A stretch of 57,417 bases of DNA from Candidatus Woesearchaeota archaeon (GTDB lineage Archaea; Nanobdellota; Nanobdellia; SCGC-AAA011-G17; JAGVZF01), in NCBI GenBank assembly GCA_018302785.1, contig JAGVZF010000034.1:1-57417 (forward strand), written 5' to 3'. Shown one piece after another: positions 8,992 through 48,771 of the stretch (its first letter is position 1; each line of letters opens with the position of its first letter). A program made the translations under genes and the position numbers. Under the pieces are notes generated by a model. That model saw nothing but the letters and a program-made list of their open reading frames with translations, ran no database searches and was not told where the DNA came from.

Positions 8992-9888
8992 ATGAATTTT
9001 AGATCTAAAGTAGAAGCATCTTTTGAAAAGAACTATAAAAAGTTCATTTTTATACCTCTAGCAATATTAATTATTAGTATAATTCTAATCTTTATTCAAT
9101 ACCAAAGAACAGGAGATTTTCTTTACAAAGACATAAGCCTTAAAGGAGGCCTTTCAATAACAATAAACACAAACAATGATATAGATTTAAATGATCTAGA
9201 ATCAAAAATAACTTCTAAGTTCTCAAGTGCAGAGGCAATTGCCAGAAAATTAACAGATTTTAGCACAGCCCAGATTACAGGTATTAATATAGAAGCTTCT
9301 GGTGTAGAAGAAAAAGATCTTAAACCATTTTTAGAAGAATATTTTGCTTTAAAATTAACAAATGATAACTACTCAGTAGAAGAAGTTGGGGCCTCTTTAG
9401 GTTCTTCATTTTTTAAAGATTTAATTATATCTTTAATATTTGCTTTTATATTTATGGCAATTGTAGTATTTGTAATATACAGAAAATTTATTCCAGCTAT
9501 TACTGTAATATTAACAGCTTTAACTGATATAATTGCCACCTTAGCTGTAGTAAATTTACTTGGGATAAAAATTTCAACTGCTGGAATAGCAGCATTTCTA
9601 CTTTTAATAGGTTATTCAATAGATTCTGATATGCTATTAACAACTAAAATACTTAGAAGAAAATCTTCTTCTGCAATTTCTGAAATGTATAATGCAATGA
9701 AAACTGGTTTGATGATGACAATAACTACACTCGTAGCATTAGCTTTAAGCCTAATATTTACAAACTCAATTGTTATAAGGCAAATATTTAGTATAGCTCT
9801 AATTGGACTAATCATAGACATAATTGCAACTTATTTAGGCAATGGTCCTGTGTTATTATGGTACGCAAAGAAACATGAAACTAAATAA
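8992..9888 (+). CDS. secF: Protein-export membrane protein SecF
   Basis: SecF architecture; GYSIDSDMLLTTKILR and following TM helices; overlaps secD. Confidence 0.88.
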   Translation: MNFRSKVEASFEKNYKKFIFIPLAILIISIILIFIQYQRTGDFLYKDISLKGGLSITINTNNDIDLNDLESKITSKFSSAEAIARKLTDFSTAQITGINIEASGVEEKDLKPFLEEYFALKLTNDNYSVEEVGASLGSSFFKDLIISLIFAFIFMAIVVFVIYRKFIPAITVILTALTDIIATLAVVNLLGIKISTAGIAAFLLLIGYSIDSDMLLTTKILRRKSSSAISEMYNAMKTGLMMTITTLVALALSLIFTNSIVIRQIFSIALIGLIIDIIATYLGNGPVLLWYAKKHETK

Positions 9889-11443
9889 AATACTTAAGAA
9901 ATGGAGAGTAATAGTTTTAATATTAGCACTTTTAATTAGTTTGATTTCTATTAATTATCAATTTAATACAGAAGGAGTTATAATAAAAGGTGTAGAATTT
10001 AACTCAACTGCTTCATTAGCAGGAATTCCAACGCCATCACCAAATATAGCTCCCACAAACTATGAAAAAATTATAGCAGTTAATGGAAAAGAAATTAAGA
10101 CATTAGAAGATTACACAAAACTAGTTACAGAATCTCCTAATAACCAAGCATTAAGAATTCAAACAAATAAAAATAGTTATGCTATACTAAAATCAAATGC
10201 TTCATCTTTAGGAATTACTGTAGATAATGTTCCCACATCAAATATTAAAAAAGGACTTGAATTACAAGGAGGAACTAGAGTTTTATTAAAACCAGAATCT
10301 ACAATAACAGATCAAGACAGAGAAGATTTAATTCAAATCTTAGAAAATAGACTTAATACATATGGCTTAAGCGACATAAAAATAAAAAAAGCTAATGATC
10401 TTTCTGGGAATAAATATATTTCTGTTGAAATTGCTGGAGCTACAAAAACAGAAGTCAAAGACTTAGTAGCATCTCAAGGAAAATTCGAAGCTAAGATAGG
10501 AGATTCTATTGTTTTTGAAGGTGGTAAAAAAGACATAACATTTGTTTGTAGAAATGATGGAACATGCTCAGGAATAAGAGAATGTCAAGAATCTAGTGAA
10601 GGTCAAGTTTGTATTTTTGAATTTGCAATTACATTATCTGCTGATGCTGCTAAAAAACATGCTGAAATCACAAAAGATTTAGATATAAATATTTCATCAC
10701 AAGGAACAAAATATTTATCAAAAACTCTTGATTTATACCTAGATAATAATCAGGTTGATTCCTTACAAATAGGTGCCGACTTAAAAGGAAGAGAAGCTAC
10801 TCAAATAGCTATTTCTGGTCCTGGAATAGCTACAACAAAAGAAGAAGCTTCACAAAATGCATTAAAGAATATGAACAAGCTTCAAACAATTTTAATTACA
10901 GGATCGCTTCCATTTAAATTAGAAATAGTAAAAATAGATAATATTTCCCCAACATTAGGTTCTCAATTTGTTAAAAATGCTTTATTAATAGGAATTATTG
11001 CTTTAATTGCTGTAGCAATAACAATTTTCATAAGATACAGAAGCTTAAAGATTGTAATTCCAGTTTTTATTACTCAAATCTCTGAAATAATATTATTACT
11101 TGGATTTGCATCTTTATTTAAATATAATTTAGATTTAGCTGCAATAGCAGGAATTATTGCTGCCGTAGGTACAGGAGTAGATGATCAAATAGTTATGATA
11201 GACGAGATTAGAGCTAAAGGCTCAGAATCTTATGCATCAACTGTAAAAGAAAGAATAAAAAGAGCATTCTTCATTATAATGTCTGCTTGGGCTGTTGGTG
11301 TAGCTTCTATGCTTCCATTATTAAGAGCAGGAGCTGGATTATTAACAGGATTTGCCTTCACAACAATAGTAGGAATTTCAGTGGGAGTCTTTATAACAAG
11401 ACCTGCATTTGCATCTATTGTAGAAACTTTATTGGAAGAATAA
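9875..11443 (+). CDS. secD: Protein-export membrane protein SecD; start probably the internal Met at 9875 (MKLNKILKKWR)
   Basis: GLELQGGTRVLLKP...; TM domain VGTGVDDQIVMIDEIR; N-terminal PDZ-like segment. ORF track starts at 9842 but the upstream part lies within secF. Confidence 0.85.
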   Translation: MKLNKILKKWRVIVLILALLISLISINYQFNTEGVIIKGVEFNSTASLAGIPTPSPNIAPTNYEKIIAVNGKEIKTLEDYTKLVTESPNNQALRIQTNKNSYAILKSNASSLGITVDNVPTSNIKKGLELQGGTRVLLKPESTITDQDREDLIQILENRLNTYGLSDIKIKKANDLSGNKYISVEIAGATKTEVKDLVASQGKFEAKIGDSIVFEGGKKDITFVCRNDGTCSGIRECQESSEGQVCIFEFAITLSADAAKKHAEITKDLDINISSQGTKYLSKTLDLYLDNNQVDSLQIGADLKGREATQIAISGPGIATTKEEASQNALKNMNKLQTILITGSLPFKLEIVKIDNISPTLGSQFVKNALLIGIIALIAVAITIFIRYRSLKIVIPVFITQISEIILLLGFASLFKYNLDLAAIAGIIAAVGTGVDDQIVMIDEIRAKGSESYASTVKERIKRAFFIIMSAWAVGVASMLPLLRAGAGLLTGFAFTTIVGISVGVFITRPAFASIVETLLEE

Positions 11444-38230: not shown

Positions 38231-40882
38231 ATGGAAGAAGAACTACAAAACAGGAAGAAAAAACTTTATTCAACAATAAAAAAAGGAAAGTTAATTTGGA
38301 TAGCTATTGCATTAATTCTTATTGCTTATTTTGGATTTTGGATAAGAACTCAAAATTTACCTTTACTTAAAGATGTAACTAATAACGAATATATCCCAAT
38401 GGAGCTTGATTCTTTTGTAATATTAAGATATGCAGAATATTATAATGAACACGGAAAACTAATGGAAAATGATAAAATGAGATATTATCCAACAGGTTTT
38501 GATCCTAGAAAAGAATTTTCATTTATGGCATGGTTTATCTCAACCTTATATAACATACTACACTTTTTTAATAAATCAATAACAATTCAATTAGCAGATG
38601 TTGTTTATCCCCCAGTAGCATTTGTTCTAGGCATAATATTCTTCTTTTTACTTGTAAATAGTCTTTTTAATTATAAAATAGCTCTAGTTGCATCTTATTT
38701 ACTAACAGTAAGCCCTATATTCTTACAAAGAACTATAGCAGGATTCTCAGACAAAGAAGCTATAGCAACAGCCATAATCTTCATGTCCCTTTATTTCTTT
38801 GTAATATCATGGAAAACAAATAAAGTTTGGAAAGTTATCTTATTTAGTTTTCTTTCAGGATTAACAACAGCAATGTCAATGCTAGCTTGGGGTGGGGGTA
38901 ATATAGTAACATTTATAATTGGTGCATTTATGTTAACAGAAGTTTTCTTAAATCAATTAAGCAAAAAAGATTTCTATAGAAACAGCATTTACTTTATAAC
39001 ATCTTTTACTATATTAAGTTTTATCACAAACAAATATCCAATAAAAGAACTAGCCTCTAGCTTAACTACAACAATCACAATATTCGGTTTTGTTGCAGGT
39101 ATTGTATATTACCTTATTTACTATAAAAATATATTTAAATTAAAAGATAAATTTGAAAATAAACTTCCTATTGGAGTAGTATCAATTATATTATCAGGAA
39201 TTTTAGGATTAATTGCAACAAGTATTTTAGTATCTCCTTTATTCTTAATAGATAAAATAAAAGATATAATACAATTAGCAGTAAATCCATTTGGAAGAAG
39301 TAGATGGGCACTAACAGTAGCAGAAAGTATGCAACCTTATTTTGTTGATTGGATTTCTAATATAGGAAAATTCTTTGTTTATATCTTTATATTCGGATCA
39401 ATTTTGTTATTTTATGAAACTGTAAAGAAATTAAAATACAAATATTATTTAACAATTGCATACACAATTTTCATTTTTGCATTTATAATGAGCAGATATT
39501 CAAATAGTTCTTTATTAAATGGAACAAATACAATATCAATAATTCTTTACTTAGGATCATTATTAGTATTTAGTTTACTAATTATTTATCTTTATATTAA
39601 ATCATTCTATAAAGACAAAGAAGAATACAATAAATTTGTTGCTATAGATAAAGTCCATTTATTTATGATTGTATGGTTTCTATTTATGGTTGTTGCAGCT
39701 AGAGGTGCTATAAGAGTTTTATATATCTTTGCACCTGTTATTGTTATATTATCTTCTTTCCTTATTGTTAGATCATTAGATTATTCATTATTACTAAAAA
39801 AGTTTTATTTAAAAATAATTGGAGTACTAATAATCATTCTTATTCTTTTTATACCAAATATTCAAGGAAATATATATGCTTATACAGTATCTACAGTAAA
39901 TCAGGCAAAATTCACAGGTCCATTATACCACCAACAATGGCAATTAACAGGACAATGGATTAGAGAAAATACTCCAGAAGATGCTGTATTTGCTCATTGG
40001 TGGGACTATGGTTATTGGGTCCAAGGAGGAGGTAAAAGAGCGACAATAACAGATGGAGGAAATGCAGTAGGTGCATTAAATTATTTTATGGGTAGATATG
40101 TTCTAATGGGGAACACAGAAGAAGAAGCTCTAAGATTTTTAAAGGCTAGAAACGCAACTCATCTATTAATTGTATCTGATGAAATAGGTAAATATCCAGC
40201 ATTTTCAGCAATAGGCTCAGATGAAAATTATGACAGATTTTCATGGTTATCTACTTTTGCGCTTGATCCTGCAAATACACAAGAAACTAGAGATAATATA
40301 GTTTTAATATACACTGGTAGTTATCCATTTGACGATGATTTTGTTTATAATGGAAAATTATTTCCAAGAAGATCCTCAGGAGTAGGTGCTATATTATTAC
40401 CAATAGCTAAAAAAGACAATAGTACGCAATTAGATCTTAATAATCTTGAAATTAGACAGCCAACTGCAGTTGTTATCTATAATGGCCAACAAACTAACAT
40501 TCCATTAGAATGTATATTTATAAAAGATAAAGAAATAGTTTTTAATGAAAAAGGAGTTTCAGGATGTCTTAGACTGATTCCAACTATAGATAGAAATGGT
40601 CAAACAAATCCAATTGGAGCAGGAATCTATGTTTCTCCAGATGTAAGAAAAACATTATTCACAAAGCTTTATCTTTATGGCTTAGAATCTCAATACTTTA
40701 AAGTTGCATATGATGACAGTTCTAGAATGCCTTTATCTGTATTTGATGGAAATTTAATAGGTCCAATGAAGATATGGGAAATAAGTTATCCTGAAAAACT
40801 AGATATCCCAGAATTTAAGTATTATATTGAAGATAGGCTTCCAGATCCGAATGTAACTAAAGTAAACCTAGATTTTTACTAA
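38231..40882 (+). CDS. aglB: Oligosaccharyltransferase AglB (STT3 family)
   Basis: Multi-TM GT-C with catalytic WWDYGYWVQGGGKR motif and soluble C-terminal domain; first-loop ELDSF Asp. Confidence 0.93.
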   Translation: MEEELQNRKKKLYSTIKKGKLIWIAIALILIAYFGFWIRTQNLPLLKDVTNNEYIPMELDSFVILRYAEYYNEHGKLMENDKMRYYPTGFDPRKEFSFMAWFISTLYNILHFFNKSITIQLADVVYPPVAFVLGIIFFFLLVNSLFNYKIALVASYLLTVSPIFLQRTIAGFSDKEAIATAIIFMSLYFFVISWKTNKVWKVILFSFLSGLTTAMSMLAWGGGNIVTFIIGAFMLTEVFLNQLSKKDFYRNSIYFITSFTILSFITNKYPIKELASSLTTTITIFGFVAGIVYYLIYYKNIFKLKDKFENKLPIGVVSIILSGILGLIATSILVSPLFLIDKIKDIIQLAVNPFGRSRWALTVAESMQPYFVDWISNIGKFFVYIFIFGSILLFYETVKKLKYKYYLTIAYTIFIFAFIMSRYSNSSLLNGTNTISIILYLGSLLVFSLLIIYLYIKSFYKDKEEYNKFVAIDKVHLFMIVWFLFMVVAARGAIRVLYIFAPVIVILSSFLIVRSLDYSLLLKKFYLKIIGVLIIILILFIPNIQGNIYAYTVSTVNQAKFTGPLYHQQWQLTGQWIRENTPEDAVFAHWWDYGYWVQGGGKRATITDGGNAVGALNYFMGRYVLMGNTEEEALRFLKARNATHLLIVSDEIGKYPAFSAIGSDENYDRFSWLSTFALDPANTQETRDNIVLIYTGSYPFDDDFVYNGKLFPRRSSGVGAILLPIAKKDNSTQLDLNNLEIRQPTAVVIYNGQQTNIPLECIFIKDKEIVFNEKGVSGCLRLIPTIDRNGQTNPIGAGIYVSPDVRKTLFTKLYLYGLESQYFKVAYDDSSRMPLSVFDGNLIGPMKIWEISYPEKLDIPEFKYYIEDRLPDPNVTKVNLDFY

Positions 40883-40920
40883 ATTGATAGCTTTTTAAAT
40901 TTTTTAGTTATCTAAATATT

Positions 40921-41946
40921 ATGATAAGAAAGATTAGAGATATTTCTAGAAAATATGCATTATGGGTAGATTATATATTCTATTTAATATTTAGTCCATT
41001 TAAATTTAAGAAATTTCCAATTAATATAAAGAAAATTCTAGTTGTTGAAGATCTTTCTATAGGAGATATATTAGTTGTAGTGCCTACATTAAGAGCATTA
41101 AAGGCAAAATTTGGTGCTCAAATTGACATAAAAGTAAGTCCAAATATGAAAGAAGTAGCAGAATCCCTTCCTTATGTAAATAAAATAATTACAAATTTTG
41201 ACATAGATAAAGATTATGATCTGGGAATTATTCTTCACTCAGGATCATTTAAAAACAGCTATAATTTACTAAGAAATAAAGTAAAATATAGAATTGGTTG
41301 TACAAAAGTTGGAGTTTTAACACCAAAAGGTTTTTTCTTAAATAAAAAAATCATGCCTAATACCAAAGAACAACATAAAATAGAAGATAACTTAGATGTA
41401 ATAAGGCCTATTAAGGTAGATACACAAAATAAATCACTTGAAATAATTACTGATAAAGAAATAGATAAAAAAATAATCTCGTTATTTAAGCAAAACAAAT
41501 TAAATAAATTTAAAGTTGTTATTCACCCAGGTGCTAATTACAAGTCGCATGAATGGGTTCCAGAAAGATATATTAAAGTAATACAATTTTTAATAGATAA
41601 TTACGACGCAAGCATAATAATTACAGGAAGTAACAAAGATAAAAATATTTTAGAATATATTTTGAAGCAATTTAATAATCCAATATTAGATTTATGTGGA
41701 AAAACAAACATTAAAGAATTTTTCTCAATAATAAAAAATTCTGATTTAGTAATTAGTGTAGATACAAGTGCTATGCATATAGCAGCAGCTTTTAACAAAC
41801 CAATTATAGCCATATTTGGAGATGGTTATCCAAAAATGTGGTATCCATACACAGAAAATAAAGTTATTTTATTCAAAGATTATTCAACTAAAAATATTTA
41901 TGAGGAAGATGTTATTGAGGCAATACAAAAATTAATAAAAAAATGA
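40921..41946 (+). CDS. GT9 family glycosyltransferase (ADP-heptose:LPS heptosyltransferase-like)
   Basis: DLSIGDILVVVPTLRALKAKFG; VVIHPGANYKSHEWVPERYIKVI; DLVISVDTSAMHIAAAFNKPIIAIFG. Confidence 0.87.
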   Translation: MIRKIRDISRKYALWVDYIFYLIFSPFKFKKFPINIKKILVVEDLSIGDILVVVPTLRALKAKFGAQIDIKVSPNMKEVAESLPYVNKIITNFDIDKDYDLGIILHSGSFKNSYNLLRNKVKYRIGCTKVGVLTPKGFFLNKKIMPNTKEQHKIEDNLDVIRPIKVDTQNKSLEIITDKEIDKKIISLFKQNKLNKFKVVIHPGANYKSHEWVPERYIKVIQFLIDNYDASIIITGSNKDKNILEYILKQFNNPILDLCGKTNIKEFFSIIKNSDLVISVDTSAMHIAAAFNKPIIAIFGDGYPKMWYPYTENKVILFKDYSTKNIYEEDVIEAIQKLIKK

Positions 41947-43070
41947 GAATATTATATATAACCCCATATTTCTATCCTGTAAAGGGTGGAGCTGAAAATG
42001 TTCTTTTCCATATAGCTAAAGAACTAGTTAAAAAAGGGCACGAAGTTAAAGTACTAACATCTGACTTAGATAGGGATAAAAGAATACAAAAAAAAGTTGA
42101 AACCATTGAAGGAATAAAAATAAAAAGATTAAAAACTTATTTTAAATTAGGTAATTTTGTTGCCTTCTTTCCTTCAGTTTTTAAAGAAGCACTAAATGAA
42201 GATTTTGATATAGTCCATATTCATGGTTATAGACACCCACATAATCTACTAGTCTTCTTAATAAAAAAACCAAAATTAATTACAGCACACTGGCCAGAAT
42301 ATCCTATAAAAATAAGGGGACTTATCTTAGGAATTGCAGCAGAATTATTTGATTTAATCCTAGGAAGAGCAATACTAAATTCTTGTAAGTTTGTATGTGC
42401 AGATACAGTTCCAGAAGCAAAATGGTATCAAAAAAAATTCAATTTAAGTTATAATAAAATAGCTTTAGTCCCACTAGCGATTCCTAATGAGTATTTAAAA
42501 ATTAGAAATCCAAGTATATTTAGAAAAAAATTAGAAATTAGAAATAACGAAATAATTGTATCCTCACTTTCAAGATTACATAAAAGTAAAGGATTAGACT
42601 TATTAATAAAAGCAGCTAAATACTTTCCAGATGTTAAATTTATTATTGCTGGAGCTAATGCAGGTTATGAAAAAGAACTTTTTAACTTAATCTCAAAATT
42701 AAAACTAAATAATGTAACAATAATACAAAATTTAAATGATGAAGAAAAATTACAACTCTTAAGTTCCTCAGATATTTTTGTGCACCCTAGTTATTATGAT
42801 GCTTTTGGCATATCTATACTAGAAGCATTCTCTCAAAATAATGCAATAATTGCCTCACATACAGGAGGAGTACCTTGGGTTGTAGGAAATTCAGGATTTA
42901 CATTTAAAGTAGGAAGTGTAAAAGATCTTAAATCTAAACTTGAAATTCTTATTAATAACAAAAGACTTAGATTAAATCTTGCAGAGAAAGGAAGAAAACG
43001 AGTAAAAAATTTTATTTGGGGCAAAGCAGTTGAAAATCAGGAAATCCTTTACAAGAAATCTATTAAATAA
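41943..43070 (+). CDS. GT4-family glycosyltransferase
   Basis: YPVKGGAENVLFHIAKELVKKGHEVKVLT; FVHPSYYDAFGISILEAFSQNNAIIASHTGGVPWVV. Confidence 0.9.
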   Translation: MRILYITPYFYPVKGGAENVLFHIAKELVKKGHEVKVLTSDLDRDKRIQKKVETIEGIKIKRLKTYFKLGNFVAFFPSVFKEALNEDFDIVHIHGYRHPHNLLVFLIKKPKLITAHWPEYPIKIRGLILGIAAELFDLILGRAILNSCKFVCADTVPEAKWYQKKFNLSYNKIALVPLAIPNEYLKIRNPSIFRKKLEIRNNEIIVSSLSRLHKSKGLDLLIKAAKYFPDVKFIIAGANAGYEKELFNLISKLKLNNVTIIQNLNDEEKLQLLSSSDIFVHPSYYDAFGISILEAFSQNNAIIASHTGGVPWVVGNSGFTFKVGSVKDLKSKLEILINNKRLRLNLAEKGRKRVKNFIWGKAVENQEILYKKSIK

Positions 43071-43072
43071 AT

Positions 43073-44197
43073 TTATCCGGAAGCATGATCTACCTTGATA
43101 TCTTTAAATCCTAATCCGGTGGTCTCGGCAATATGATTCTTAATGTTAACTCTTTGCTTATTTAACTCACGTATTGCTATAGCCCTTCTACCAACTTCCT
43201 CAAGACCAAGTTTACCTTCTTTTCCACTTCTTATATCAAATTCCAAGTCCCAAATACCTTTATTAACACTATAAAGATCACTAAACCAATTAGGTTTAAT
43301 TTCAACGCCACTCTTTTGATATTCATTTAGAGCAAAAGTGTAAGAATCATACTCTTTTTTTAATGATTCATCCCCTAGCCTCTCTATTTTCAATTTTAAT
43401 ATAGACAACCGATCTATGATGTCTGATAAAGGCACCTTAACAAACTTATCTGGAGCATGAATAAATCTTCCAAAAGTAAATATGCCTTGAACTCTATTTA
43501 AAGACACTAAGCCAGGAATTAAATCATCCTCAATACTAGATGTCTTTTCATGAAAATAATCAAAAATTTCGTAATTAAAAAGGTAAACACCAGCATTAAT
43601 TATATTAGATCCTGTTACTAAACCTCTTCTAAAGTCTACAATTATCCTTCCATCTAAGACCACATTTGTAGCATTAGGAGATTCAGTTGATGTAATCAGC
43701 CCAACAGTTGCTAAATAATCATCCCTGATATGTTCTTTTAACATATTTTTTAAGTTAAAGTTATTAAAAGTATCTGCATTCATCACTAAAAAGGTGTTTT
43801 TAAGTTGGTCTTTCACTAATAATAAGGCCAACGCTGTGCCTTTACTGTCTTTTTCATCAATTAATTGTAATTTAGAGCTGTTTTGTATATTAGCAGTTGA
43901 CTCAATTAAAGAATCATTTAATTTAGTCACTAGATACACTTCATTAATACCATTTGAAGTAAGAAATTTTAAATTATGCTCAATTAAAGTCATATCTCCA
44001 AATTTTTGGAATAAAAATTTTTGGTGTTGCTCTTTTATAAGTAAAACTGCTTGGGACAAAGGAGAATATTTGACAGCTTTATTTAAAAGCATGCCTATAG
44101 CATGAGATCTTGACGAAATATTCTCTTTTTCCATAAAATTATCTATACAATCTAATAAATATTGGTCCATAGATATAGCTATTTTCACCTTTTTCAT
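43073..44197 (-). CDS. Three-part fusion: N-terminal ribbon-helix-helix DNA-binding domain, nucleotidyltransferase-fold (degenerate P-loop-equivalent) domain, DUF6165-like C-terminal domain
   Basis: MKKVKIAISMDQYLLDCIDNFMEKENISSRSHAIGMLLNKAVK (RHH); LIEHNLKFLTSNGINEVYLVTK...FLVMNADTF...NAGVYLFNYEIFD (NTase fold); PLSDIIDRLSILKLKIERL...VNKGIWDLEFDIRSG...RAIAIRELNKQRVNIKNHI (DUF6165-like). Confidence 0.7.
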   Translation of the reverse strand: MKKVKIAISMDQYLLDCIDNFMEKENISSRSHAIGMLLNKAVKYSPLSQAVLLIKEQHQKFLFQKFGDMTLIEHNLKFLTSNGINEVYLVTKLNDSLIESTANIQNSSKLQLIDEKDSKGTALALLLVKDQLKNTFLVMNADTFNNFNLKNMLKEHIRDDYLATVGLITSTESPNATNVVLDGRIIVDFRRGLVTGSNIINAGVYLFNYEIFDYFHEKTSSIEDDLIPGLVSLNRVQGIFTFGRFIHAPDKFVKVPLSDIIDRLSILKLKIERLGDESLKKEYDSYTFALNEYQKSGVEIKPNWFSDLYSVNKGIWDLEFDIRSGKEGKLGLEEVGRRAIAIRELNKQRVNIKNHIAETTGLGFKDIKVDHASG

Positions 44198-44213
44198 TTT
44201 AATAATTATTAAA
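44198..44213. promoter_or_regulatory. 16-bp perfect palindrome TTTAATAATTATTAAA immediately upstream of the RHH-fusion start codon (candidate operator)
   Basis: Sequence equals its own reverse complement; abuts the ATG at 44197-44195 in a divergent intergenic region. Confidence 0.4.
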
Positions 44214-44325
44214 GTATTAACTTATAACAATTTCTATTATTTAAAAACAAATTTTAACTATATAAAAACAACAAAAGATTTATAAATTATAAGGTAGGAA
44301 TTATTCATACCAACAGAAGTTAACC

Positions 44326-45705
44326 ATGAAAACACTATTTATATATTGGAAACACCCAATAGAGCCTTTAGGTATTATGTATTTATCTGCAGCCCTTAAA
44401 GAAGCAGGACACAAAACCAAACTAGTTGCAATTGGTAAAGATAACATAGAAGAAGTAGTAATGTCATTTAAACCAGATATTATTGCTGCCAGTATTATGA
44501 CTGGGAGCCAAGGAGAATTCATTAATCTAATTAATTCATTAAAAAAAAAGCATGATTTCTTTGCAGTAATGGGGGGTATACATCCTACTTTCTATCCAGA
44601 TGAAATAAAAGCAGAAGGTCTAGACTGTGTTATTCTTGGGGAAGCAGAAGAAGCATTAGTTGAATTAGCTAATAGCATTGAAAATAAAGAAAACCTCACA
44701 AAAATACCAAATATTTGGGTAAAAATAAAAGGCAAAGTATTCAAAAATGAGAAAAGGCCTCTTGAACAACATTTAGACAAATTACCTTTTGCTGATAGAG
44801 AAATTGTTTATGAACATGAATATTGGAAAAGTCAACCAATAAGACATTTTATAGCAGGAAGAGGTTGTCCATACAAATGCACATATTGTTTTAATCACGC
44901 GATGGTAAAAGAATATAAAGGAAATGGTAATTGGGTGAGATGGAGATCTGTTGATAAAGTAATTGAAGAAATTAAAGACGTACTAGAAAAATATGGTGGG
45001 GAAATGGTTTACTTTCAAGATGATACTTTTATATTAAATAGACAATGGCTGAATGAATTTTGCGAAAAATATCCAAAATCCATTAATAAACCGTTTCATT
45101 GTCATATAAGAGCCAATTTAGTAGATGAAGATATGGCAAAAAACCTTGGAAAAGCAGGTTGTTACTCAGTACATATGGCAATAGAAGCAGGCAATGATCA
45201 TATTAGAAATGACATATTAAAGAGAGAAATGTCAGATGAACAAATATTAAATGCTGCAAAATTCTTAAGAAAATATCAAATAAGAATTATGATGCAAAAC
45301 ATGATAGGATTGCCAACAGGTTCATTCAAAAATGATTTAGAAACCCTAAAAATAAATATGAAATGCAAGCCTACGTATGCATGGTGTTCAATATTCCAAC
45401 CATATCCAGGACTAGAATTAACAGAATTTGCAGCAGGAAAAAAATTATTAGAAGGAGACTATAAAGATATTACAACAAAATTCTTTGAAACAACAATTTT
45501 GAAAACTTACGATAAAAAGAAAGTATCAAACCTCCAAAAATGGTTTGCAATATGCGTTGATTTCCCCTTGATATATTATACAGGATTACTTCACTTGTTT
45601 GTAAATATGCCACGAAACAACTATACTCAAAAATTCTTTAACTGGGCATATGAAAAACATAGAAGTTGGAGAGATAATCACTTGTATGGCCTAAAACTAA
45701 ACTAG
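44326..45705 (+). CDS. B12-binding-domain-type radical SAM protein
   Basis: N-terminal Rossmann-like domain with IIAASIMTGSQGEFI...VMGGIHPTFYPDE; CPYKCTYC radical SAM motif. Confidence 0.87.
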   Translation: MKTLFIYWKHPIEPLGIMYLSAALKEAGHKTKLVAIGKDNIEEVVMSFKPDIIAASIMTGSQGEFINLINSLKKKHDFFAVMGGIHPTFYPDEIKAEGLDCVILGEAEEALVELANSIENKENLTKIPNIWVKIKGKVFKNEKRPLEQHLDKLPFADREIVYEHEYWKSQPIRHFIAGRGCPYKCTYCFNHAMVKEYKGNGNWVRWRSVDKVIEEIKDVLEKYGGEMVYFQDDTFILNRQWLNEFCEKYPKSINKPFHCHIRANLVDEDMAKNLGKAGCYSVHMAIEAGNDHIRNDILKREMSDEQILNAAKFLRKYQIRIMMQNMIGLPTGSFKNDLETLKINMKCKPTYAWCSIFQPYPGLELTEFAAGKKLLEGDYKDITTKFFETTILKTYDKKKVSNLQKWFAICVDFPLIYYTGLLHLFVNMPRNNYTQKFFNWAYEKHRSWRDNHLYGLKLN

Positions 45706-45738
45706 TAGTTTTATAAATTTTACCTCTATTAAATAACT

Positions 45739-46635
45739 ATGATATCTATTATAATTACTTCTTATAAAGAGCCCCACACAGTAGGAAGGGCAATTGAAGC
45801 TATTATAAATCAAAACATTAAAGAAAAATATGAATTGATTTGTGCATCTCCAGATGAAGAAACAGCAAAAGTTGTTAAGACATACTCAAAATTAGATAGT
45901 AGAATTAAGTATTTTAAAGATCCTGGCAAAGGAAAAATGTTAGCACTCAACTTGCTTTTTAAAAAAATAAAAAGCGATATTATCATTTTAACTGACGGTG
46001 ACGTTTATCTATCTAATAATAGCGTTAGTGAAATAATTAAAGCATTTAGTAATAAAAGCGTTGGCTGTGTTGCAGGCAGGCCAGTTTCAATTGACAATAA
46101 AAAACAACTACTAGGATATTGGAGCCATTTGCTTACTCATGGTGCTCATTTAGCAAGATTAAAGAGGCATAAAAACTCCCAGTATTTCACTTGTTCTGGA
46201 TATCTTTTTGGATTTAGAAATGGGCTAATTAAAGAATTTCCAAGAAGTGTACCAGAAGACGCTGTAATACCATATATAGTACTTAAGAAAGGATACAAAT
46301 TGTCATACGCCCAAGAAGCAAAGGTCTTTGTAAGTTATCCAAAAAACATAATAGATTGGATTAAACAAAAGAAGAGAATTAATAAGGCATATCACAATAT
46401 CTATAGCATGATTATAGAAGGTGATAAAATTCCAAAAATGAAATCTATGAGAAATGAAATTATAGAAGGCACTATTATTGCTTTAAGTTATCCAAAAAAC
46501 ATAAGAGAATTTTTTTACACTTTAGCTTTATTTCCATTTAGACTTTTCGTGTGGTCCCAGTCTTTTTTTGATCATTATATTATTAGCAAAAAACACACAG
46601 ATGCTTGGGACCAAATAAAAAGCACCAAAACCTGA
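45739..46635 (+). CDS. GT2-family glycosyltransferase
   Basis: MISIIITSYKEPHTVGRAIEAII; DIIILTDGDVYLS. Confidence 0.87.
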   Translation: MISIIITSYKEPHTVGRAIEAIINQNIKEKYELICASPDEETAKVVKTYSKLDSRIKYFKDPGKGKMLALNLLFKKIKSDIIILTDGDVYLSNNSVSEIIKAFSNKSVGCVAGRPVSIDNKKQLLGYWSHLLTHGAHLARLKRHKNSQYFTCSGYLFGFRNGLIKEFPRSVPEDAVIPYIVLKKGYKLSYAQEAKVFVSYPKNIIDWIKQKKRINKAYHNIYSMIIEGDKIPKMKSMRNEIIEGTIIALSYPKNIREFFYTLALFPFRLFVWSQSFFDHYIISKKHTDAWDQIKSTKT

Positions 46636-46681
46636 TAACAGCAAAAGAAAAATTTGTTTATATATATTTTAAATAGAAATA

Positions 46682-47287
46682 ATGGAAAATTCTGAAGAAA
46701 CAAACATACTTGAGAAGTACATAGATAATGTAGGGACAATTTTACAAGAATTAAAAAAATACAATAACGAAGTAAATCAAGCATCTGACAAAATAATACA
46801 TGCCTTAGAGAAAGGCAACAAGGTATTTATTTGTGGTAATGGGGGGAGCAATTGTGACACGCAACACATATCAGCAGAACTTACAGGTAGATTTCTAGAT
46901 GGTAGAGAAAGAAAAGGACTAGCTGCAATTGCCCTACCAACTTCTCTAGCAGCAGTTACAGCCATAGCAAATGATTATGGTTATGAATTTGTTTTTGAAA
47001 GAGAACTTCAATCTCTCTCCAATCCAGGAGATATTTTAATTGGTATATCAACAAGCGGAAATTCTACAAATGTCCTTAATGCAATAAAATATGCTAAAAA
47101 TAATAACATATATGTAATAAGTATCTTAGGTAAAACTGGGGGTAAAATAAAAGGACTTTCAGATATAGAATTTGTTGTTCCATCAAAAGAAACAGGTGTT
47201 ATTCAAATAGTACACTCAATTATATATCATGCTATATGCGATAAAATAGATGAATATTTCGTTAATAAAAATCAACCTAAGCAATAG
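46682..47287 (+). CDS. gmhA: Sedoheptulose-7-phosphate isomerase GmhA
   Basis: KVFICGNGGSNCDTQHISAELTGRF; ILIGISTSGNSTNVLNAIKYAK (SIS domain). Confidence 0.9.
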   Translation: MENSEETNILEKYIDNVGTILQELKKYNNEVNQASDKIIHALEKGNKVFICGNGGSNCDTQHISAELTGRFLDGRERKGLAAIALPTSLAAVTAIANDYGYEFVFERELQSLSNPGDILIGISTSGNSTNVLNAIKYAKNNNIYVISILGKTGGKIKGLSDIEFVVPSKETGVIQIVHSIIYHAICDKIDEYFVNKNQPKQ

Positions 47288-47328
47288 ATTTATAAGTATT
47301 TTTCTAACAACTATTATCGAAGATAAGA

Positions 47329-48771
47329 ATGAAAACCACAATTGAAATAGTAAAGGATTTTGCTCATAAAAAAATAATGGTTATTGGAGATCTGATGTTA
47401 GATAGATATTTATTTGGAGAAGTTTCAAGAATATCCCCAGAAGCACCAATACAAATATTAAACGCACAATATAAGAAATATGCTCCTGGTGGTGCTGCTA
47501 ATTGTGCAGTAAACGCGTCAGCGCTTGGTGCAAAAACATCTATTTATGGAATTACTGGCGATGACCCAAATGGAAGAAAATTAGAATTATTGCTAAAAAA
47601 ACATAATATAGATACAAGTAATATAATATTTACTAAGAAATGCAAAACTATTGTTAAAGAAAGAATTGTATCTAATAATCAACAACTATTAAGAATAGAC
47701 TTTGAGGAACTTAATAGCTATAAGGGCATATCAAAAGATAAATTAATATTTGACATAAAAAAAGACATAAAAAAATTTGATGCTATCCTTGTCTCAGATT
47801 ATGCAAAAGGTCTAATAAATGTTGAAATTATGGAAACAATAAAAAACTCAAAAAAAGAATTTACTCCAATTATAGTAGACCCAAGACCTAAAAATAAAGA
47901 ATTATTTAAAAACGTTACTCTTATAAAACCAAATTTAAAAGAAGCTATGGAAATGTCTCCAAATAATAAATCTGTATATGATATAGGAATATTTTTGGCA
48001 AAAGAACTAAATTCAAATGTTTTAATTAGCAGAGGATCTGAAGGGATGTCCCTATTCTCAAAAGATTTAACTTATAAAGATATTCCAACTGAAGCAAAAG
48101 AAGTAAGAGATGTTTCTGGAGCAGGAGACACAGTAACTTCAACACTTGCATTAGCAATATGTGCAGGAGCTACACTAAATCAAGCTGCTATACTGGCAAA
48201 CCAAGCCGCAAGTATAGTAGTATCAAAATTCGGAACTGCAACAGTAACTCAAAAAGAATTATTAAGTTTAATTTCAACAGAAAATAAGAAAGTAAAAGAC
48301 TTAAATCAATTAAAAGAAATTATTAAAGACTATAAAAAAAGACATAAAAAAATCGTATTTACAAATGGTTGTTTTGATATATTACATCCAGGACATACAA
48401 AATTTTTATCAGAATCTAAGAAATTAGGAGACATCTTAGTAGTAGCCTTAAACAGTGATGAATCCGTTAGAAAATTAAAAGGAACTGGTAGACCAGTAAT
48501 TTCAGAAAAAGAAAGAGCTGAAGTAATATCTTCACTTGAATCAGTTGATTATGTAACTATATTTAAAGAAACTGAACCTTATAAAGTGATATCAGCCCTA
48601 AAACCAGACATTTACACAAAAGGAAAAGTATATTCTATGTCAGAACTTCCTAAAAATGAACTTAAGTCAATAAAAAGTACAAATTGCAAAGTAGTATTTA
48701 TTCCAAAAAAAGAAAATTTTTCTACAACAAATATTTTACAAAAAGTAAATAATTCAAAAAATGGAATCTGA
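47329..48771 (+). CDS. hldE: Bifunctional heptose-7-phosphate kinase/heptose-1-phosphate adenylyltransferase HldE
   Basis: PfkB kinase domain (KIMVIGDLMLDRYLFGEVSRISPEAPIQIL...DVSGAGDTV) fused to nucleotidyltransferase (VFTNGCFDILHPGHTKFL). Confidence 0.92.
   Translation: MKTTIEIVKDFAHKKIMVIGDLMLDRYLFGEVSRISPEAPIQILNAQYKKYAPGGAANCAVNASALGAKTSIYGITGDDPNGRKLELLLKKHNIDTSNIIFTKKCKTIVKERIVSNNQQLLRIDFEELNSYKGISKDKLIFDIKKDIKKFDAILVSDYAKGLINVEIMETIKNSKKEFTPIIVDPRPKNKELFKNVTLIKPNLKEAMEMSPNNKSVYDIGIFLAKELNSNVLISRGSEGMSLFSKDLTYKDIPTEAKEVRDVSGAGDTVTSTLALAICAGATLNQAAILANQAASIVVSKFGTATVTQKELLSLISTENKKVKDLNQLKEIIKDYKKRHKKIVFTNGCFDILHPGHTKFLSESKKLGDILVVALNSDESVRKLKGTGRPVISEKERAEVISSLESVDYVTIFKETEPYKVISALKPDIYTKGKVYSMSELPKNELKSIKSTNCKVVFIPKKENFSTTNILQKVNNSKNGI

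Follow-up and report, generated by a model that had tools for sequence, protein, structure and literature searches.

A putative regulator beside heptose-glycan genes of a DPANN archaeon, apparently built from a DNA-binding domain and a broken sugar-activating enzyme

PutA and NadR are trigger enzymes: each combines a DNA-binding domain with an enzyme of metabolism and controls the pathway to which that enzyme belongs; in PutA, the DNA-binding domain is of the ribbon-helix-helix (RHH) type. The protein described here joins an RHH to the fold of the sugar-1-phosphate nucleotidyltransferases (NTases). It differs from PutA and NadR, which are bacterial and have other enzyme folds, in that the enzyme part is dead throughout its own clade, intact versions being found mainly in a sister clade, PMM. 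A trigger enzyme is an active enzyme as well as a regulator, so this catalytically degenerate clade does not belong to the class; members of the sister clade that retain intact loops might qualify. The fold is shared with HddC, whose structure is matched by the protein, and with other sugar-1-phosphate NTases, although the GxGxRL loop, the catalytic Lys and the metal Asp of these enzymes are absent and an RHH has been added.

Two other systems come close to different halves of the protein. NikR of E. coli has a related RHH sequence, and its operator, GTATGA-N16-TCATAC, is made of the same GTATGA/TCATAC half-sites (PMC7055735). However, the spacing in the present clade is N5 instead of N16, the sensor is an NTase fold and not a nickel-binding domain, and the predicted targets are sugar genes and not nickel uptake. 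GMPPA is a non-catalytic paralogue of GDP-mannose pyrophosphorylase that senses its nucleotide sugar (PMC11228364). It is likewise a catalytically dead NTase paralogue and is among the closest folds to our NTase domain, but it works through contact with another protein, the enzyme GMPPB, and has no DNA-binding domain. In the open-access literature, we found no description of an RHH-NTase fusion regulator among the matches examined.

The window, that is, the whole stretch of 57,417 nucleotides of Candidatus Woesearchaeota DNA that was analysed, contains at 43073-44197, on the minus strand, an open reading frame of 374 amino acids whose length and strand were confirmed and whose reading frame is continuous. 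The gene is divergent from a radical-SAM gene, with an intergenic region of 128 bp (44198-44325) between the two. Its product appears to be a regulator built from a DNA-binding domain and a broken sugar-activating enzyme, followed by a DUF6165 domain (Table 1).

Table 1. Coordinates in the window of the regulator domains, the promoter elements and the neighbouring genes.
Feature	Position	Strand	Basis or remark
STT3/AglB oligosaccharyltransferase	38231..40882	+	Pfam; conserved near clade members
GT9 heptosyltransferase-like gene	40921..41946	+	Pfam, NCBIfam
GT4 glycosyltransferase	41943..43070	+	Pfam; convergent with the regulator gene
DUF6165 domain, residues 253-374	43076..43441	-	Helical; fused form only in the window protein
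Pseudo-nucleotidyltransferase domain, residues 46-250	43448..44062	-	Pfam NTP_transferase, Foldseek, residue table
RHH DNA-binding domain, residues 1-45	44063..44197	-	Strand KIAIS; helices 12-25 and 30-43; homolog matches
TATA-box-like TTTATAAAT of divergent operon	44279..44287	+	Sequence; order in relatives
Operator GGTAGGAATTATTCATACC	44293..44311	.	Core GTAGGA-N5-TCATAC, 44294-44310, 1 mismatch to clade consensus
Radical SAM/B12-binding protein	44326..45705	+	Pfam; leads the divergent operon that the regulator putatively controls
GT2 glycosyltransferase	45739..46635	+	Pfam; homolog in locus L212 53% identical
GmhA-like sedoheptulose-7-phosphate isomerase	46682..47287	+	NCBIfam PRK13936 3e-57, gmhA 6e-56, both below curated cut-off
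HldE-like bifunctional heptose-7-P kinase / heptose-1-P adenylyltransferase	47329..48771	+	NCBIfam PRK11316 3e-134, below curated cut-off

The preliminary description had read residues ~1-45 as a canonical RHH. From the window protein alone the match is weak (NikR models, E=0.005), but homologs make it firm: Pfam RHH_1 is matched by 5 of 15 aligned members, and the family profile matches residues 3-46 of E. coli NikR, which are its RHH domain (E=0.008). AlphaFold, with a mean pLDDT of 84.7, places the two expected helices, the RHH beta strand not being drawn in the monomer model, and the original reading was upheld. The nickel-binding domain that forms the C-terminal part of NikR is absent, the NTase and DUF6165 standing in its place. 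The NTase fold that had been proposed at ~49-250, without the GxGxRL...PK loop, was confirmed as well. It matches Pfam NTP_transferase with E=1.2e-11 in an alignment that begins only at profile position 22, so that the N-terminal catalytic loop is missing, and the best Foldseek matches are GDP-mannose pyrophosphorylases (VTC1, with E 6.9e-16, and GMPPA/GMPPB). AlphaFold draws an alpha/beta domain at ~49-240, in a part of the model based on a shallow alignment, and a helical bundle at 257-360.

Relatives of the window gene are present in 171 of the 371 genomes of the phylum, some of them being ordinary NTases or stand-alone DUF6165 genes. The loci gathered from this DPANN phylum hold 107 proteins, including the window's, with an RHH followed by an NTase; the combination is a widespread family in the phylum and not unique to the window. 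A mis-called start, which the preliminary description would have recognised by homologs lacking residues 1-45, is ruled out, the RHH segment being found throughout the family. A viral origin was also discarded, relatives of the RHH-NTase being absent from viral contigs.

In the maximum-likelihood tree of the family, all but two rows fall into three main clades. Clade Hep (33 rows, support 100/100) includes the window protein, which groups with the Candidatus Woesearchaeota locus L032 and with L076 (support 99/94), several rows, the window protein among them, having long branches; the GGxGTRL loop is kept in none of the 33. Clade UGD has 12 rows, all degenerate, 10 of which adjoin a UDP-glucose/GDP-mannose dehydrogenase. 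In clade PMM, the loop is intact in 39 of 60 rows and a phosphomannomutase/phosphoglucomutase adjoins 46. The strand signature of the RHH differs by clade: KIAIS is that of the window's clade (27/33 members), and the sister clades have RVTLT and KISIT together with other operators and sugar pathways.

The pattern of residue loss within Hep is informative about what the NTase may still do. None of the other 32 members has the last Gly or the Arg of the GGxGTRL loop, the Lys of PK or the Asp of WxDxG, each being replaced or gone; the Asp has usually become His, with one exception. Kept residues are the LGTAG glycine and the NGD aspartate (both 32/32), the YG glycine, the EKP Lys and the NAG Asn (30/32 each) and the EKP Glu (29/32). 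By homology with characterised NTases, we take the lost set to serve the nucleotide and catalysis, and the kept set the sugar phosphate; on that assignment, the Hep-clade NTase has lost its nucleotide/triphosphate side and has mostly kept its sugar-phosphate side. The hallmarks of an active NTase (GxGxRL...PK loop, metal-binding aspartates) are missing from the window protein and the 32 relatives alike, save for the NGD Asp. The window protein retains this Asp, NAG and the LGTAG glycine but not YG or EK. Its pocket is therefore more degraded, and ligand binding more doubtful, than in the relatives; it may fail to bind a sugar phosphate.

This loss of EK and YG agrees with an explanation in which the protein is a ligand-independent autoregulator, whose RHH binds the operator and whose pseudo-NTase is a scaffold for dimers or tetramers, or a module for protein-protein interaction. 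The NTase fold commonly oligomerises, and the operator data are silent on any ligand. Nevertheless, scaffold use alone would not predict that about 30 of 32 relatives keep the sugar-side residues and lose the nucleotide side, and each clade is linked to one sugar pathway, so we find this explanation rather unlikely.

The predicted binding of DNA by the window protein, and its target, are in our view well supported, mainly by a conserved operator. GTATGA-N5-TCATAC is found within 200 bp upstream of 17 of the 33 Hep members versus 2 of 847 other genes in the same loci and, when one mismatch is allowed and the distance is extended to 300 bp, of 28 of the 33 versus 0 in shuffled sequences; these statistics are descriptive, for they ignore relatedness among the loci, some of which are also where the motif was first noticed. 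Better support is given by a comparison of whole genomes, which is a partial check, and by the spread over many families. Of 27 genomes with a Hep gene, 20 have the exact operator, as a rule at one site and mostly directly upstream of that gene; of 27 comparison genomes chosen for having no Hep gene, 4 have it. The sister clades have operators of other types: direct repeats like TCATAC-N4-TCATAC upstream of TATA in PMM (31/60 versus 1/847), and TCCTAC repeats in UGD (9/12 versus 50/847).

In the window, the core GTAGGAATTATTCATAC is the sole site with at most one mismatch, one half-site being altered (GTAGGA for GTATGA), and it lies in the 128-bp intergenic region, where the chance of such a site is ~5e-5 under a first-order Markov model. 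One further site with at most one mismatch is found elsewhere in the whole genome. Counted from the start of TTTATAAAT, the core begins 15 nt downstream, and the start codon of the divergent gene follows shortly after it; this TATA-operator-ATG order is common to most relatives. Such a position between TATA and ATG is the geometry of a repressor, so binding should block divergent transcription. In another genome, two operators with one mismatch each lie 284 bp apart and away from the regulator gene (G370:C15:37720-38020), and they are possibly a second target there.

The same data bear on two other explanations. The operator could be bound by another regulator, for example, another NikR-like RHH protein, the RHH-NTase gene being merely one of its targets; DNA binding by the RHH-NTase is deduced from sequence, and NikR, too, recognises GTATGA half-sites (PMC7055735). 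We think that this has a very low probability, as the site is usually unique in a genome and located at the RHH-NTase gene, is concentrated in the genomes that have the gene, and changes in type with the RHH strand signature of that same gene. Alternatively, the pseudo-NTase might resemble GMPPA in being an allosteric subunit, which would partner an active NTase or another glycan enzyme and regulate its activity, with DNA binding as a secondary matter. The closest structures (GMPPA/GMPPB and VTC1) speak for such a role, as does the intact NTase that adjoins some relatives (L047, L048), but the strong and clade-specific conservation of the operator speaks against it, and so does the fact that Hep members mostly neighbour HldE-type enzymes instead of NTases of the same fold. 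This role also seems highly improbable to us.

The neighbourhood is what suggests a ligand for the sensor that we favour. Most Hep members adjoin genes for ADP- or GDP-heptose and for N-glycosylation. On one side of the Hep loci, STT3/AglB, GT2, DUF2304 and GT9 follow each other in conserved order; on the other side, a divergent operon holds GmhA, an epimerase or GSU2086-family protein, HldE kinase, GmhB and HldE adenylyltransferase. In a strict count over the sequence examined, GmhA or HldE lies within 4.5 kb of 25 of the 33 members, the window's GmhA at ~2.5 kb being left out because the locus piece ended short of it, and the figure is 30 of 33 with GT9 included. Some Hep loci have no recognisable heptose genes on the stretch examined. 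In L032, an HddA-like heptose-7-phosphate kinase and an HddC-like NTase take the place of the HldE type, and L212, from a look at its sequence and its matches to the window, apparently has a GHMP-type kinase, GmhA, a HAD phosphatase and an NTase. As heptose genes accompany the regulator irrespective of the nucleotide, we infer a shared heptose phosphate as ligand; that the ligand is a heptose compound at all is deduced from the gene neighbourhood.

In the window (38231-48771) and in L061-L075, an archaeal STT3/AglB stands beside a bacterial-type ADP-heptose pathway (GmhA, HldE, GmhB, GT9), which suggests heptose-containing N-glycans in DPANN archaea. We found no paper in the open-access literature linking ADP-heptose with Woesearchaeota. 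At L061:6412-7314 and in other loci, a GSU2086-family protein (NF052581, 8e-124) occupies in the ADP-heptose operon the slot that an epimerase has elsewhere, and it is possibly an unrecognised heptose enzyme.

Taken as a whole mechanism, the best explanation, which we hold to be probable, is local repression by a protein that senses a heptose metabolite through its pseudo-NTase. The protein would be a one-component transcriptional regulator: its N-terminal RHH would dimerise and bind GTATGA-type half-sites, and binding to the window's core would block the divergent radical-SAM/GT2/GmhA/HldE operon, the promoter of the regulator gene itself probably being affected too. The NTase domain, which presumably no longer makes nucleotide sugars, is the most likely sensor, and would read heptose 7- or 1-phosphate or an NDP-heptose and tune DNA binding accordingly. 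The DUF6165 tail, probably a protein of glycan islands that was separate until a recent fusion, may add to this sensing or replace part of it. The earlier proposal that a dead NTase with a DNA-binding domain may regulate the glycan locus, which is still a prediction, now has much stronger backing than at first, from conserved synteny with heptose genes and from an operator that is specific to the clade and lies in the divergent promoter, as the window's copy does.

In DPANN archaea, gene regulation is almost unstudied. If the mechanism is true, it would offer a readable regulatory code for their surface glycans, in which the regulator can be named, the operator seen and the class of ligand predicted, and it suggests local control of heptose glycans made by bacterial-type GmhA/HldE genes beside an AglB-type oligosaccharyltransferase. 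Moreover, the family presents an unusually clear series from enzyme to sensor, in which intact and dead versions of one fold, with the same DNA-binding domain, are sorted by sugar pathway. A broader proposal, to which we would give about even chances, is that in this family the enzyme that makes a nucleotide sugar is itself the transcription factor, the intact members being trigger enzymes for the phosphomannomutase-linked pathway and the dead ones sensors of heptose and of UDP-sugar dehydrogenase products, with strand and operator changing with the pathway.

Several loci of the sister clades deserve mention. PMM loci such as L044:7374-8306 and L051:7998-8855 have an RHH with an intact-loop NTase followed by a phosphomannomutase/phosphoglucomutase, and TCATAC direct repeats 10 bp apart upstream of TATA; intact-loop proteins of this clade are candidate trigger enzymes. 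In UGD-type loci (L054, L056, L059, L159, L173, L179, L182, L187), an RHH with a degenerate NTase adjoins a UDP-glucose/GDP-mannose dehydrogenase, and several show TCTTAC/TCCTAC repeats 11 bp apart. An intact and a degenerate RHH-NTase lie near each other on one strand at L048:7965-8834 and 9699-10535, and at L047:7989-9520 an RHH-degenerate NTase is followed by an intact NTase lacking RHH; these pairs recall GMPPA/GMPPB.

The third domain has a narrower distribution. A DUF6165-like C-terminus had been recognised in the preliminary description, and it holds near the cut-off of the Pfam model (PF19662; 24 bits in the whole protein and 27.6 bits for the domain alone, with a cut-off of 27). The three-domain architecture, which had been put forward as the novelty, did not survive as a family: the RHH-NTase-DUF6165 fusion occurs in 1 of ~475 genomes searched, and what stands as a finding is the family with two domains. 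In the closest relatives, the protein stops at about window residue 250, none of the other family members examined carries DUF6165, and no match to the fusion was found in a second genome of the window's genus or in one other genome of its family. A bearing on the fusion is that the window genome is a draft of 48 contigs with an estimated contamination of 6%.

Genomes of the same order have stand-alone DUF6165 genes 55-61% identical to the window's domain, and 2 of 9 stand-alone archaeal members, the closest being 61% identical, match the Pfam model at E<=0.01. In L213, a stand-alone DUF6165 lies between the GT4 and GT2 of a heptose island, in the slot of the window gene. L212, of the same order, has the RHH-NTase alone in that slot. 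Its operator has one mismatch, and the gene divergent from the regulator is again a radical-SAM gene, which shares 52% identity with that of the window. As DUF6165 and RHH-NTase fill equivalent slots in relatives, the window gene looks like a fusion of both.

Deducing a function for DUF6165 from its fold was abandoned: AlphaFold gives a confident helical bundle, for which no PDB match better than E ~1 was found, and we found no paper on DUF6165 in the open-access literature. DUF6165 genes are also present in large viral contigs (L114-L138), several of them in glycan cassettes with glycosyltransferases and epimerases, and one (L135:5668-6345) is fused to a HAD-like phosphatase domain.
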